The notes beneath the pieces were generated by a model. That model was given only the letters and a program-made list of their open reading frames with translations, was not told the origin of the DNA and ran no database searches. From positions 1-43,089 of the forward strand of contig CANGYO010000004.1 in assembly GCA_947458095.1 (NCBI GenBank): a stretch of DNA of 43,089 bases, given 5' to 3'. Numbering within the stretch: the stretch's first letter is position 1; each line of letters starts with the position of its first letter. Source of the DNA: Vampirovibrionales bacterium. GTDB lineage: Bacteria > Cyanobacteriota > Vampirovibrionia > Vampirovibrionales > JAJTHC01. Both the position numbers and the translations under genes were made by a program. Shown one piece after another: positions 1,307-43,089 of the stretch.

Positions 1307-1453
1307 ATACCATTTAAACGAATGAAAAGCGACTAGGTGGATTCTAGGACCCTAGACTCGCAGATGTGTGAGGTGTACAAAACGTACATAAGCACATCGA
1401 GAATCGTAGCGACAACGAAGACGCCAGACGCTATTCATTCGTTTAAATGGTAT
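1307..1453. repeat. dispersed repeat B, copy 1, with perfect 20-bp terminal inverted repeats
   Basis: The left end ataccatttaaacgaatgaa is the exact reverse complement of the right end. The core contains ctaggaccctag and cgcagatgtgtgag, found again in B2 (41869-42033) and in the 3' end of the TolC-family gene. The right end overlaps the last codons and stop of the gene at 1443-2621. The ORFs the track calls here (1337-1564 and 1352-1594) are open frames through the repeat and not credible genes. Confidence 0.9.
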
Positions 1454-2621
1454 GAAACAACGGTGCTTGACGAGACGACATGGGGTTGGTATACGCGTTC
1501 TGCATCGGGGGAGCCGTCTTGGCTTGCTGGGCTTTATAGTCAGTGCTTCGATCCTTACGAGTGAACAAACATGCCACCGTCGGAGGCATCGCATACAAGC
1601 CTGCTCCTGTTGCCACGGTAGCTAAAAAGCTGTACACCGCTTTTTTATCTGAATGTTTCCCAAACTTTTTGTCCAGTGTGGGTTCAATCGACTTCTGCAC
1701 GATGTTGGGAATCACCATGTTGGCAAACCCATACCATGCAAATTTCACAATGGCTTCAAAACGTTCGACGGGGTCTCGTGCTGAAAGGATAAGTCCGCTA
1801 TAGCCAAAGGTGCCAAAGCTTGAAAAAACTTGAAGATCACTGATGTCACCCATGTCGCCTGTAATTTCACCCGTTTCACGATTCTTAAAACTTAGCAAAT
1901 CTTGTAAGGACGTTTTACTCCCTTTTTCGGGAAAGAGAATTGCCAAATGTTTTAATCGACCTTTTTTTAGCTGATTATGCACTTTAGCCAGCGATTCAGT
2001 GAATGGTACTTTAAACTGCTTCGTTAAAAAAGCAGGCAAGTCTGCTCCCTTTTTCATTTGATGATACGCCCACCCTGAAGTAACACCGCCTATGGCTAAA
2101 CTTAAACCCACTGCTTTTCCAATGGTTTCGAGTTGCGTACGTTCAAAGGCATAGCGTTCTTTTTTGTGGACGTCTGTTTCAGTGGCGTTCTTTTTCTTAT
2201 GGTCTGTGTCATCATCACCCAAGCCCACCAAATCCACAAAATTATGCGTTTTAAACGTTTTACTGGTGAGATAATTCCGCAGATACATCGCTGAATAGTC
2301 GGTGGCAGCGAGTACAGGCAAGGTCGCCAGTGCAACGCCTAAGCCTTTCCATGCTAATGCATTTTTCTGTTCCGCCGTGCCATGTTTGAGCGTATTTAGG
2401 TGGGCATCATAGATTTTTTCAACGCCCTTGCTAAACTGAAACGTCGCCATGTAAGACCCGACTTCTTGAGCAGCCTGCTGGTAGAATTGATCGATACGTT
2501 CATTAAGGTTCATGCCCAACAAAACGTGAGGCACACCAGATCCTAAGAATTCTTGCCAAAAGAAGCGTTGACCAGAACTTTTTGCAATGGGGGCGAGCCA
2601 TTTAACCAGTTTATCAGACAT
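1443..2621 (-). CDS. membrane-associated protein of unknown function
   Basis: The product has 392 residues and I do not recognise the family. Hydrophobic stretches suggest membrane contact: GLGVALATLPVLAA near residue 95, AVGLSLAIGGVTSGWAY near 170, and SFLATVATGAGLYAMPPTV near 340. A charged stretch (DDDTDHKKKNATETDVHKKE) lies between the first two. GAGG about 8 nt before the ATG supports the start. The final residues HTI and the TAA stop are encoded by the terminal inverted repeat of element B1, so the native C-terminus may have been altered by insertion of the repeat. Confidence 0.75.
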   Translation of the reverse strand: MSDKLVKWLAPIAKSSGQRFFWQEFLGSGVPHVLLGMNLNERIDQFYQQAAQEVGSYMATFQFSKGVEKIYDAHLNTLKHGTAEQKNALAWKGLGVALATLPVLAATDYSAMYLRNYLTSKTFKTHNFVDLVGLGDDDTDHKKKNATETDVHKKERYAFERTQLETIGKAVGLSLAIGGVTSGWAYHQMKKGADLPAFLTKQFKVPFTESLAKVHNQLKKGRLKHLAILFPEKGSKTSLQDLLSFKNRETGEITGDMGDISDLQVFSSFGTFGYSGLILSARDPVERFEAIVKFAWYGFANMVIPNIVQKSIEPTLDKKFGKHSDKKAVYSFLATVATGAGLYAMPPTVACLFTRKDRSTDYKAQQAKTAPPMQNAYTNPMSSRQAPLFHTI

Positions 2622-5093: not shown

Positions 5094-6035
5094 ATGACAA
5101 CGCATCACCCCCTCATTATTATTGGTTCAGGACCTGCGGGCTTTACCGCAGGCATTTACGCCGCTCGTGCGGATTTAGCCCCCCTCATTTTTGAAGGCAT
5201 CCAACCTGGAGGTCAACTCACCATCACCACCGATGTCGAAAACTTCCCTGGTTTTCCCGACGGCATTATGGGTCCCGACCTCATGGATGCCATGCGAAAG
5301 CAAGCCCAACGCTTTGGAGCAACCACCGCTTACGAAATGGTAACGAATATCGATTTTAGCAAGCGACCTTTTGCTGTAACGACTGATAGCAAAAGCTATA
5401 CCGCTGATGCGTTAATCCTTTGCACAGGGGCTTCCGCCATTACAGGGGGCTTGCCAAATGAAGCGGAACTCATGGGGCATGGGCTTTCCGCCTGTGCGAC
5501 TTGTGATGCCTTTTTCTTCCGTGGCAAAGAAGTCGTGGTCGTCGGTGGAGGCGATTCTGCGATGGAAGAAGCGCATTTCTTGACGAAATTCGCCACGAAA
5601 GTCACGATCGTGCATCGTCGTGATGCCTTTAGAGCGTCCAAAACCATGCAAAGCCGTGTGCTTGAAAATCCGAAAATCAACGTCATTTGGAATACCGAAG
5701 TCGTGGAACTCATCGGCAGCAAAGAAACAGGCTTGACGGCTGTGACCCTTCAAGCGAAAGACGGCGAACGCACGAATTTCCCCACCAACGGCTTATTTTA
5801 CGCCATTGGTCACAAACCCAATACCGACTTGTTTAAAGGCGTGTTGGATATGAATGAGGTGGGCTATTTAAATGTCGCTTCGCCTTCAAGTAAAACGAAT
5901 GTCGAAGGCGTCTTTGCGGCTGGCGATGTCTGCGATCCGCATTACCGCCAAGCCATTAGTTCCGCTGGGGCAGGCTGTATCGCTGCCATGGATGCCGAAC
6001 ATTTCCTCTCTAGCCAAGTGACTAGCCTGGTTTAA
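5094..6035 (+). CDS. trxB: thioredoxin reductase
   Basis: This NADPH-dependent flavoenzyme reduces thioredoxin in the cytoplasm. The 313 residues have the usual order: FAD-binding GSGPAGFTAGIYAARA near residue 11, the redox pair in CATCDAFFF near 136, NADPH-binding GGGDSAMEEAHFLTKF near 153, the HRR motif, and GVFAAGDVCD near 275. AAGGA lies 10 nt before the ATG. The coding sequence ends SLV-TAA, and the last A of the stop codon is the first base of a B-type repeat end (atacc), so the gene abuts a repeat at its stop codon. Confidence 0.95.
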   Translation: MTTHHPLIIIGSGPAGFTAGIYAARADLAPLIFEGIQPGGQLTITTDVENFPGFPDGIMGPDLMDAMRKQAQRFGATTAYEMVTNIDFSKRPFAVTTDSKSYTADALILCTGASAITGGLPNEAELMGHGLSACATCDAFFFRGKEVVVVGGGDSAMEEAHFLTKFATKVTIVHRRDAFRASKTMQSRVLENPKINVIWNTEVVELIGSKETGLTAVTLQAKDGERTNFPTNGLFYAIGHKPNTDLFKGVLDMNEVGYLNVASPSSKTNVEGVFAAGDVCDPHYRQAISSAGAGCIAAMDAEHFLSSQVTSLV

Positions 6036-6212
6036 TACCAAATAAACGAATAAATTTCGTGTTGTCTCTTCGTAGCGACAAAGTATAGAAGGCTTTGTGA
6101 AACTCGAAAAACACACCGTCATTGCGAGCGTAGCGTGGCAATCTGCCTCCCACAAAAGGTTTTCGCAGAGCCTTCTATAGACACTGAACAGGAAATTATA
6201 AAGATGACTATA
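6035..6212. repeat. composite repeat: B-type left end, inserted C element, A-type right end
   Basis: Bases 6035-6072 match the end at 18766-18803 (inverted) in 36 of 38 positions. The sequence then continues cgtagcgacaaagtata as in A elements, is interrupted by a C element (6084-6179), and resumes at gacactgaacaggaaatt to finish gactata, the A right end. Excising C restores an A-like junction at TATA. The composite fills the gap between trxB and the SDR gene and overlaps both. Confidence 0.8.
6084..6179. repeat. dispersed repeat C, copy 1 (nested)
   Basis: The element is 96 bp, bounded by tatagaaggctttgtgaaa and its imperfect inverse tttcgcagagccttctata. The core holds gtcattgcgagcgtagcgtg, a motif shared with copies at 20415, 30640 and 36024. 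It sits inside an A-like element at a TATA site, which suggests later insertion. Confidence 0.85.
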
Positions 6213-17272: not shown

Positions 17273-18068
17273 TTATATGGGACGAACCTGTGTGCTGGTG
17301 GCATCTTGGGTTTGAAGTTGTAACAAAGTGCCTTTGGGCAACTCGATGCCCTTGCCCGGTCTCCATAATGCATAACCGATGCCCGCCGCTGCACCAATAC
17401 CTGTACCTAGAGCTGCTCCTGAACCAGCGGCTCCAAATATCGCTCCCGTAGCGGTTCCTGCCAATGCCCCGATACCTGTACCTGCCGCCGCAATTCCCAC
17501 GCCTTTGGCGGCATCCACCACATAATTATTGGGACGAATCACCGAGCCTCCGTGCTTGGTTACCACAATGGCGTCCATGGCGACACGTTCACCACTGGGT
17601 TTTACAATGGTATAAAAACGTAAATCGACTTGGCCATGAATGCCAGCACGCTTAGCGGAAGACACATCCACAATCGTTCCTAAGACTTCAGAACCAGCAG
17701 GGGCAATAATAGAAGATCCCGACATCACAGGCGATTCAAGCGTCGCAGAAATGGTGTCGCCTTGCTTGGCATCTTTAGAACTCACACGATCGTTCAGACG
17801 AATCGTCAAGTACTGCTTACCAGCCACGGCAGAAACACCTGTTCGGTAGCTGGCTGAACTGGTTGAAGGGGTGTTGTAAACAGACGGATCAATGCGTCCG
17901 CCAGAGGTGGTACTGGGTTGCCAAGGTTGCACAGAACCACTGCCGCTATTGGCAGTATTCAAGGGACGCAACTGCACTAAGCCTTCCGCTTGGGCATAAA
18001 AAGGCAAAACCGTCAAATTAACAAGGGAAACCAATAAGGTAAAAGTCATCCATTGAGATAAACGCATA
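17273..18068 (-). CDS. secreted glycine-zipper protein of unknown function
   Basis: The product has 264 residues. A signal peptide (MTFTLLVSLVNLTVLPFYAQA) directs export. The central region (YLTIRLNDRVSSKDAKQGDTI ... PAGSEVLGTIVDVSSAKRAG) resembles the beta-rich domain found in many cyanobacterial and other exported proteins, and is followed by a glycine zipper (GTGIGALAGTATGAIFGAAG). Such zippers often associate with membranes. The function is unknown. I place the start at 18068, where AGGAG lies 9 nt upstream; the track start at 18106 lacks one. Confidence 0.75.
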
Positions 18069-18700: not shown

Positions 18701-18765
18701 GTCTGGCGGATTCAAAAAAAGTAGAGTCGGTAAAAATAAAAGGCGGATCAAATCTAGCTTGAAAA

Positions 18766-18803
18766 CGAAGAGACAACACGACATTTATTCGTTTAATTGG
18801 TAT
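18766..18803. repeat. solo end of a B-type repeat
   Basis: These 38 bases are the inverse of 6035-6072 with 36 identities (ends ggtat; inner part gagacaacacga). Beyond this the two copies diverge. It overlaps the stop codon of the metalloprotease gene at 18793. Confidence 0.8.
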
Positions 18804-20414: not shown

Positions 20415-20486
20415 TATAAAAATTCGCTTCGTCATTGCCACGCTACGCTCGTAATGACGAAAGCCATTTCCGTAGAGCCTTCAATA
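20415..20486. repeat. dispersed repeat C, degenerate copy
   Basis: A short palindromic version: CGTCATT ... AATGACG around gccacgctacgctcg, with diverged outer ends (tataaaaattcgc and gagccttcaata). It lies between the terminator and pilB. The rest of the gap to the pilB start shows no further feature. Confidence 0.7.
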
Positions 20487-30639: not shown

Positions 30640-30782
30640 TATAGAAAGCTCTGCGAAAGTGGTTTTCGTCATCCTAAGTGAAACGAAGGATCACCCTAGT
30701 CTTTGCGGTTTCCATTTTGGGAGATTGCCACGCTACGCTCGCAATGACGGTATGTTTTCAGACTTCCGCAAAGCCTTTTATA
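30640..30782. repeat. dispersed repeat C, copy 2, with hybrid arms
   Basis: The outer ends tatagaaagctctgcgaaag and cttccgcaaagccttttata are imperfect inverted repeats. The left inner arm (gtcatcctaagtgaaacgaa) is of D type and the right inner arm (attgccacgctacgctcgca) is of C type. It sits just upstream of the glycosyltransferase start and is the reason the ORF track extends that gene too far. Confidence 0.85.
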
Positions 30783-30799
30783 GAATTAAGGACACGGTT

Positions 30800-32025: not shown

Positions 32026-32175
32026 TATAGTGTTTTAAAGAGTTTTCCGTACAGTAGGCTAGACGAGAAGCCTAGATTATTTTGTGAAGAAGTGTAGATA
32101 GACCTACATGACTGAACAAAATAATCGTAGCGACAAAGTATAGACACTGTAGGGGAAATTATTTAAAATACTATA
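32026..32175. repeat. dispersed repeat A, copy 2
   Basis: The 150-bp element runs from tatagtgttttaaagag to ttaaaatactata. The internal arms gattattttgt and acaaaataatc and the tgtag...ctaca inner stem are intact. It lies between convergent genes, inside the 3' region of the TPR gene transcript. Confidence 0.9.
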
Positions 32176-36009: not shown

Positions 36010-36217
36010 TATAGTGTTTTATATATAGAAAGATCTGCAAAAGGGGTTTTTGTCATTGCGAGCGTAGCGTGGCAATCTGTAAAAACGCCGCAGGTGATGA
36101 ACAGATTGCTTCGTTTCACTCGCAATGACGGTGTATTTTTCGACTTTCGCAGAGCTTTCTATAGTATCCGCTAGATAAAACAGTCTACTCTAGGAACCTA
36201 GACTCGCAGATGTGTGA
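36010..36217. repeat. composite repeat: A left end, C element, B core
   Basis: Bases 36010-36021 (tatagtgtttta) match the A left end. A full C element follows, then gctagataaaacag, which resembles the right part of B2. Finally 36190-36217 (ctaggaacctagactcgcag and onward) matches the B1 core with one difference. The last part encodes the end of the TolC-family gene. No other gene is seen in the gap 35878-36197. Confidence 0.75.
36024..36163. repeat. dispersed repeat C, copy 3
   Basis: The element is 140 bp, from tatagaaagatctgcaaaag to ttcgcagagctttctata. Its inner arms gtcattgcgagcgtagcgtg and ttcactcgcaatgac enclose a C-rich centre. It lies within the composite upstream of the TolC-family stop codon, flanked by TA. 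Confidence 0.88.
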
Positions 36218-37655: not shown

Positions 37656-37804
37656 TCTAGTGTTTTAAAGAGTTTTCCGTACTTAGGCTAGACGAGGAGC
37701 CTAGATTATTTTGTGAAGAAGTGTAGATAGACCTACATGACTGAACAAAATAATCGTAGCGACAAAGTATAAGCACTGTAGGGGAAACTCTTTAAAACAC
37801 TATA
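37656..37804. repeat. dispersed repeat A, copy 3
   Basis: This 149-bp copy has the longest terminal inverted repeats: tgttttaaagagttttcc at the left pairs with ggggaaactctttaaaaca at the right with few mismatches. The internal stems are intact. It lies between the TolC-family gene and the small gene at 38243. Confidence 0.9.
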
Positions 37805-41197: not shown

Positions 41198-41869
41198 ATG
41201 AACCTGCCTTGCCTTAATCACTTTACAAGAGCCTTCACCCTGTCTGAAATCCTGATTATTTTAGGGATTATGGGAGTGCTGAGTGCGATTACGCTACCGT
41301 CTTTTTTTGAAAATCAAACGCGAAACAACTGTGCTTATGTCATTAAATCGAGCATTTTAGCGTCTAATAGCCTTTTAGAAGATGCCTTTGCCTTTGGTCG
41401 CACCAACTTAATGAATGAAGCCGTTGAGCGATTAACGACCATTCGTAATTGTTCCACGGTTGTGACCACAGATCCACAGACAAATATAACAACCACGACA
41501 GGCTTGTCGGCTACAGCAGGAGGGTGCTGGAATACCACATCGCAACAAGCTTTACCGACGGGTGTGGCAAATGCAGGCGTATTACTGAAAAATAATGCGG
41601 TTATTTTAGGGTTTAAACCCGCCGTATTATCAACAGATGAGCTTATTCGTTTTATTATTGACGCCAATGGGGTGGCGGGTCCTAATTCGGTAGGGGTGGA
41701 TCAAATCAATTTGGTGACGTGTACGACCACGGCATTTTGTCAATCAAACGCCACCATGCAAACGCTTTCAGCACAAGGTTACAAGGTCGTTCCTGGGCAA
41801 CTTTTACCTGCCAGTGTTTCAGATCTAGAGTCTGTAGCACTTTATGACCGAGTCTTTGACAGCATTTAA
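41198..41869 (+). CDS. type IV prepilin-like protein
   Basis: The N-terminus RAFTLSEILIILGIMGVLSAITLP is a class III signal: a short leader, cleavage before FTLSE, Glu at mature position 5 and a long hydrophobic helix. The residue at -1 is Ala instead of the usual Gly, which some prepilin peptidases accept. The mature part (about 210 residues) has four Cys that could form disulfides, as in minor pilins. AAGGGAAATAG before the ATG supports the start. The stop TAA shares its last A with the first base of repeat B2. It presumably uses the PilB/PilC machinery. Confidence 0.85.
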   Translation: MNLPCLNHFTRAFTLSEILIILGIMGVLSAITLPSFFENQTRNNCAYVIKSSILASNSLLEDAFAFGRTNLMNEAVERLTTIRNCSTVVTTDPQTNITTTTGLSATAGGCWNTTSQQALPTGVANAGVLLKNNAVILGFKPAVLSTDELIRFIIDANGVAGPNSVGVDQINLVTCTTTAFCQSNATMQTLSAQGYKVVPGQLLPASVSDLESVALYDRVFDSI

Positions 41870-42033
41870 TACCTAATTAAACGATTAAATAGGGTCTGGC
41901 GTCTTCGTTGTCGCTCGGGTTCTCGATGTGCTTATGGTCGTTTGTGTACACCTCACACATCTGCGAGTCTAGGCTCCTATAGTGTTCGATAGATGAAACA
42001 GGCTATGAGGCTATTCACTCGTTTAAATGGTAT
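41869..42033. repeat. dispersed repeat B, copy 2
   Basis: Starting atacctaattaaacgattaa and ending ctcgtttaaatggtat, it is B1 in the opposite orientation with a variant right portion (tatagtgttcgatagatg). The core cacctcacacatctgcgagt is conserved. A further partial end (gtttaatgggtataaatggt) follows to 42060. The left end overlaps the prepilin stop codon. Confidence 0.85.
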
Positions 42034-42939: not shown

Positions 42940-43089
42940 CATAGTGTTTTAAAGAGTTTTCCGTACAGTAGGCTAGACGAGGAGCCTAGATTGTTTTGTG
43001 AAGAAGTGTAGATAGACCTACATGACTGAACAAAATAATCGTAGCGACAAAGTATAGGCACTGTAGGGGAAATTATTTAAAATACTATA
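42940..43089. repeat. dispersed repeat A, copy 4, ending exactly at the window edge
   Basis: This 150-bp copy differs from A2 at only a few positions. The preceding ten bases (tatagtgttt) duplicate its own left end. The last base of the window is the last base of the terminal inverted repeat (aatactata), as expected if an assembly broke at a repeat. Confidence 0.88.

Follow-up and report, generated by a model that had tools for sequence, protein, structure and literature searches.

A short TACC...GGTA repeat duplicates its TNA target and at some loci lies on gene ends and stop codons in Vampirovibrionales

The window analysed here, the whole stretch of 43,089 nucleotides, is contig C4 of a Vampirovibrionales genome (G000; a 1.66-Mb draft, 85% complete) and contains four loci of a repeat termed B. 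A complete element at 1307–1453 (forward strand) runs from TACC to GGTA (1308–1452), its outer bases being part of target triplets, TTA on the left and TGA on the right. Its inverted ends read ATACCATTTAAACGAATGAA on both sides without a mismatch, and its RNA folds into a single long hairpin (−63.8 kcal/mol, z −10.2). A membrane-protein gene of 392 aa (1443–2621, reverse strand; no family assigned and zero matches in Pfam and NCBIfam) enters this repeat at 1453 and takes from the B end its final codons CAT ACC ATT and the stop TAA (HTI*, stop 1443, offset +10). A single decayed B end at 18765–18803 (reverse strand) likewise gives an M10 metalloprotease gene, entering at 18803, its terminus TAT ACC AAT TAA (YTN*, stop 18793); the protein matched Peptidase_M10 and TPR in a domain search. 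At two other genes, TAA overlaps the repeat end by one base, its final A being the first base of that end: trxB, whose stop (6033–6035, forward strand) is the target triplet of a single decayed B end (6035–6073, forward strand), and a prepilin-like gene (41198–41869, forward strand; weak N_methyl and pilin matches), whose stop (41867–41869) is the left target triplet of a nearly complete B element at 41869–42033 (forward strand). The left end of the latter (ATACCTAATT) carries one additional base, and more B-like ends follow up to 42060. All four B loci of the window thus touch a stop codon, and re-reading the sequence placed these stops (1443, 18793, 6035 and 41869) exactly where a preliminary description had put them. 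Compared with the whole genome, the window is an extreme sample of such contacts.

Two further repeats are found in the same window. Family A, with ends TATAGTGTTTTAAAG, lies at 1030–1178, 32027–32175, 37656–37804 and 42941–43089 and has core motifs in common with B; in several places a B end follows immediately on an A end (CACTA|TACC), with CTA in place of TNA. A third repeat (TTGCCACGCTACGCTCGCAATGACGG) occurs at 6110–6170, 2710–2750, 20434–20486, 30715–30786 and 36024–36167. The B end behind trxB runs on into A-repeat-like sequence, and one copy of the third repeat (about 6110–6150) is nested within this B/A hybrid.

Full copies of B measure 146–148 bp, have inverted ends of about 20 bp and are non-coding. 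The end pattern was counted 99 times in G000 vs 2 times for the reversed control, and 188 vs 5 times in Vampirovibrionales bacterium CoA8N_M69.1 (G001). B is therefore very probably a short non-coding MITE of predatory Vampirovibrio-type bacteria, which inserts at TNA and duplicates this triplet. We read the stretches around the G000 ends and around 100 of the 188 G001 end matches, namely those listed, and among these matches 51 full copies from both genomes were readable. Aligning their flanks gave T-N-A|TACC...GGTA|T-N-A, with N mostly equal on both sides: the flanking triplets were equal in 31 of the 51 copies, always TNA (12 TAA, 8 TTA, 8 TCA, 3 TGA), and unequal in the other 20. Shuffling the flank pairing over 5000 rounds yielded a mean of 10.7 equal pairs and a maximum of 21. 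Across both species, TNA adjoins 199 of 219 B ends, while CTA, which the TNA rule leaves unexplained, adjoins 13, many of them at junctions of B with A repeats. Beyond TNA, the target shows just a slight bias towards Y on the 5' side of the triplet and R on its 3' side.

The length of the duplication is given by empty sites. Where B is inserted within B (L011), the sequence reads gtgTGA–TACC..GGTA–TGAggt, whereas many uninterrupted B copies show gtgTGAggt; two TGA instead of one mean that 3 bp are duplicated and exclude duplication of TA. An insertion within an A repeat (L069) agrees with this if the right triplet changed once. Paired flanks and empty sites together show the duplication of the TNA triplet. 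A one-base or zero duplication, the first impression from the raw flanks, was dropped after the outer A and T had been assigned to the target triplet, and a CC...GG element duplicating TA was ruled out by the empty sites. We also observed 26-bp (near-)palindromes in which two B ends are fused without an interior (L024, L063 and L023, each at 2501–2526); those of L024 and L063 abut a stop codon without a gap. Decay of B can thus leave nothing but the pair of ends.

Since TNA comprises TAA and TGA on one strand, with TTA and TCA as complements, insertion into an in-frame stop copies the stop and costs nothing. In frame 0, a TAA or TGA target is the stop itself, and a TTA or TCA target reads through to a stop at +18. 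In the frame T|NAT|ACC|WWT|TAA, the stop lies at +10 within the inverted repeat, while the third frame has none there, so that stops are provided in two of three frames and at both ends. The trxB and prepilin contacts exist because the target triplet is the stop codon of these genes, those of the membrane-protein and metalloprotease genes because the inverted repeat carries a stop in their frame.

The mapping of B ends relative to stop codons that the preliminary description had proposed gave the sharp peaks expected from its claim. Over both species, offset 0 was found 22 times, +10 11 times, +18 twice and +9 once, and no offset between −60 and +20 other than 0 and +10 exceeded 3. In G000, 21 of 76 B clusters contact a stop (at 13 the stop is the exact target, at 8 it lies within the repeat); in G001, 15 of 85 clusters do so among the matches listed (9 exact, 6 inside the repeat). 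These counts rest on gene calls from a codon-usage model, with long frames as the training set, and insertions common to both genomes were not systematically taken out. Under a null model in which every TNA site of the insertion's own element-free intergenic gap is equally likely, 11.3 exact-stop hits are expected vs 22 observed (P = 0.0006; G000, 13 vs 6.5, P = 0.005; G001, 9 vs 4.8, P = 0.034). Per 100 TNA sites, 6.7 insertions were found at stops vs 2.8 at 1–100 nt downstream (2.4 times; odds ratio 2.5, P = 0.0007). The excess at stops is real but modest, about two-fold beyond target preference. The earlier statement that contacts in four of about 37 genes are far from random was hence right about an excess, although the proper denominator is the B loci. 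Coding sequence holds about 79% of the TNA sites in the sampled loci (23,238 of 29,348), and in the sampled loci of G000 and G001 genuine B ends are confined to intergenic positions, stops and last codons. None was found in a gene interior; two matches inside genes of G000 are flanked by triplets other than TNA and appear fortuitous.

Comparison with orthologues separates the two classes of contact. The preliminary description expected repeat-free orthologues to end differently; for the exact-stop class this expectation failed, as the end position was unchanged in the element-free orthologue in 15 of 18 comparisons. In G000, nine genes behave in this way: L009 (RVL*), L020 (NEVK*), L024 (GEIE*), L029, L035, L049, L056, L072 (EGIK*) and the prepilin gene, whose element-free G001 orthologues finish at the same residue position (ERI*). 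Two have differing orthologue ends, L063 and trxB; in the latter case, the G001 gene ends VLNVGV* without a B end, vs TSLV* here, the proteins being 93% identical. For the G001 exact-stop genes, the G000 orthologues have the same end in six cases, one of which (L348) shows a TACCC stub after the orthologue's stop, perhaps a remnant, and differ by one codon in another. About 7 of the 15 same-end orthologues use TAG instead of TAA; TAG is no TNA triplet, so the stop codon itself changed in one lineage. These orthologues show that an exact-stop insertion (stop–element–stop) leaves the protein unchanged. In contrast, stop-in-repeat genes (L005, L017 and the gene entering at 1453) differ from their orthologues at the C-terminus, with RQLYTI* vs RQLHAYLSDL* and VAYTH* vs NAAIR* in the +10 class, and PLFHTI* in the window vs PLYS* in the G001 counterpart of the membrane-protein gene (L120; DNA 81% identical). 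The idea that the repeat supplies the stop is hence borne out for the +10 class, while exact-stop genes have their own stop duplicated. The 3' end of G001 trxB (L088, about 1910–1985) carries another inverted repeat, GTAGGGGTGTGATAAATCAC...CGCACCCCTAC, which supplies its stop; this gene end is therefore used by two repeat families.

A partner insertion sequence was found in Vampirovibrio sp. DET50b (G002), where screening the IS copies for inverted ends brought up an element of 1085 bp that is bounded by ATACCAATTCCAAGTTTAAATAGCG and contains two overlapping frames. Its transposase matches HTH_33 and DDE_3 (PF13358, E 1e-24), and the second frame scores 139.7 bits against the NCBIfam IS630 model NF033545 (cut-off 100). 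B ends and the ends of this IS share 21 of 25 positions. The copies read in G002 have TNA flanks with few exceptions, equal on both sides in 5 of 12 (L330, L340, L344, L345 and L319), and the empty paralogues of the full-length copy L330 carry one TAA (83/83 identical); the target is thus a 3-bp TNA and not the duplicated 2-bp TA of IS630 elements. Matches to the second transposase frame number 19 full-length in G002, one in Candidatus Melainabacteria LacPavin MAG_44_8 (G003), one relic plus two weak in G000, and none in G001. The G000 relic (contig C30, from 17642) starts at TAA with ATAACCATTAAACGATTAAATAGCG, 24 of 25 positions identical to the B end; it carries a transposase frame of 76% identity but no right end. 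These data show a partner family of IS630 type that agrees with B in both ends and target. Neither the G000 bin (85% complete) nor the G001 bin (81% complete) yielded an intact autonomous copy; the case for mobilisation in G000 therefore rests on the shared ends and target. Another G002 element with a distantly similar transposase has TATAGCTG...CAGCTATA ends, consistent with the usual TA rule. G002 is very IS-rich: an IS5-type element with GAAGTTACGG ends is present in about 40 copies, several IS630 types occur, and elements are nested in one another.

Taken as a whole explanation, we consider a trans-mobilised, TNA-duplicating MITE combined with survival at stops the best reading (probability about 0.86). 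An IS630-type transposase would mobilise B in trans and place TACC...GGTA at TNA, duplicating the triplet. A hit on an in-frame stop would give stop–element–stop with the protein unchanged, and where a TNA near the C-terminus is hit, either in another frame or as an in-frame TTA or TCA, the repeat would end the gene after 10 or 18 nt for two of three frames. Insertions within genes would be purged, the survivors lying between genes, on stops and in last codons. The two-fold stop excess would most simply reflect a survival advantage, because insertions at stops leave the protein unchanged. Of the two options raised earlier, site targeting and selection, each is partly supported as a contributor: TAA and TGA stops are indeed TNA sites, although the target is a duplicated TNA and neither TA nor gene ends per se, and selection for low-cost insertions is suggested by the element-free coding interiors, from which B would have been purged.

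An unlikely alternative is active targeting, in which the transposase or target complex favours gene 3' ends or stops beyond TNA, e.g., via terminating ribosomes, hairpins or DNA shape. It would account for the denser use of stops than of downstream TNA sites and for an excess in both species; however, selection alone also predicts such an excess, stops hold just 22 of 161 clusters, and the weak Y/R preference is all that extends the target. In a broader version, an IS630-type lineage moved from a TA to a TNA target, with gene termini being self-restoring sites directly favoured by the transposition complex; we regard this as doubtful.

Decidedly improbable is a domestication of B, by which elements are kept at gene ends as hairpins that end or protect transcripts, or as spare stop codons. 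The very stable RNA hairpin would suit such a role, as would the stops that each end provides in two frames, and so would L067, where the G000 stop comes from the repeat at +10 and the genus-mate G001, which also has the repeat end (L190), reads an in-frame TAA directly before it. A search for a T-tract terminator around 1307–1453 detected none, though, solo, truncated and mini-palindrome ends lie at stops without a hairpin body, and orthologues manage without the element. Chance contact of AT-rich repeat ends with AT-rich stops is scarcely credible: TNA preference alone gives about half of the exact hits, but the peaks at 0 and +10 are sharp, the P value is low and separate insertions occurred in two species. 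Equally remote is membership in the groups better known for TNA or TWA targets, IS1031/IS5 and PIF-like elements. B does share the TNA target and 3-bp duplication of the IS1031 group (PMC12016507), and eukaryotic relatives use TWA or TNA (PMC4482050), but B-like ends flank an IS630-type transposase, and the IS5-type elements read in these genomes have unrelated ends (GAAGTTACGG, GGGGCTGTCTTC). Searches for IS5-type parents (DDE_Tnp_1, DDE_Tnp_4) accordingly returned elements with unrelated ends.

Parts of this picture have known counterparts. IS870-type elements gain a stop from their CTAG target. With the IS630/Tc1/mariner (ITm) elements, the partner IS shares an HTH_33 and DDE_3 transposase in two overlapping frames and short inverted repeats; it differs in duplicating a 3-bp TNA, whereas ITm members are described as duplicating TA; the exceptions are TATA in Sailor elements (PMC8533490) and TAA in the pogo-group Fot elements (PMC7386202). 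MITEs as such, IS630-driven MITEs and TNA targets (IS1031, PMC12016507; PIF relatives, PMC4482050) are already known. The RUP element of Streptococcus pneumoniae, a MITE of IS630-Spn1 (107 bp, 108 copies), resembles B in being intergenic, stop-bearing (in all frames) and thought to be mobilised by an IS630 element; unlike B, its target contains TA, and stop-codon duplication is not reported in that work (PMC2229807). MITEAba12 is likewise short and non-autonomous, and one copy truncates a gene and gives its stop, but its parent is ISAba12, its ends are different and its 9-bp duplications show no sequence trend (PMC6382973). The IS1031 group of IS5 agrees with B in target and duplication but has another transposase family and other ends (PMC12016507). 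Coxiella QMITE2 in enhC is also a MITE affecting the stop at a gene 3' end, yet by in-frame C-terminal extension or indel and without stop duplication by the target site (PMC5896051). In a search of open-access papers, we found neither a published stop-codon-restoring MITE or IS nor a description of a bacterial IS630-type element or MITE using TNA.

B would illustrate how a mobile element can inhabit a compact genome by simple means: a stop-codon target is duplicated, landing on a gene end is harmless, and in two of three frames the inverted repeat offers a reserve stop. The data also indicate that an IS630-type transposase is able to work with a 3-bp TNA target, a point relevant to target choice among ITm elements. 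We predict that TNA users gather at stop codons, which would apply to the IS1031 group and others with this target.

Besides G000 and G001, B ends occur in G002 and G003, where the same ends surround other interiors (elements of roughly 126–291 bp, mostly with TNA flanks) and further stop contacts were found at L232 (offset 0) and L237 (offset +10). A class-wide survey of 289 genomes found the end pattern abundant solely in four genomes of one family (92, 144, 34 and 18 matches), and eight further genomes had a single match each, comparable to the control. In G001, contig C222 around 17709–17861 (L099, L220) is 99–100% identical to the window near 1453, while the trxB DNA is 87% identical; bin contamination or recent transfer between both species are possible reasons for this near-identity. 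Among viral contigs, the only match was one B end on IMGVR_UViG_3300044637_002641 (L302, 11212–11231), a viral-collection contig with B-like repeat cores around this end, which may be bacterial sequence.
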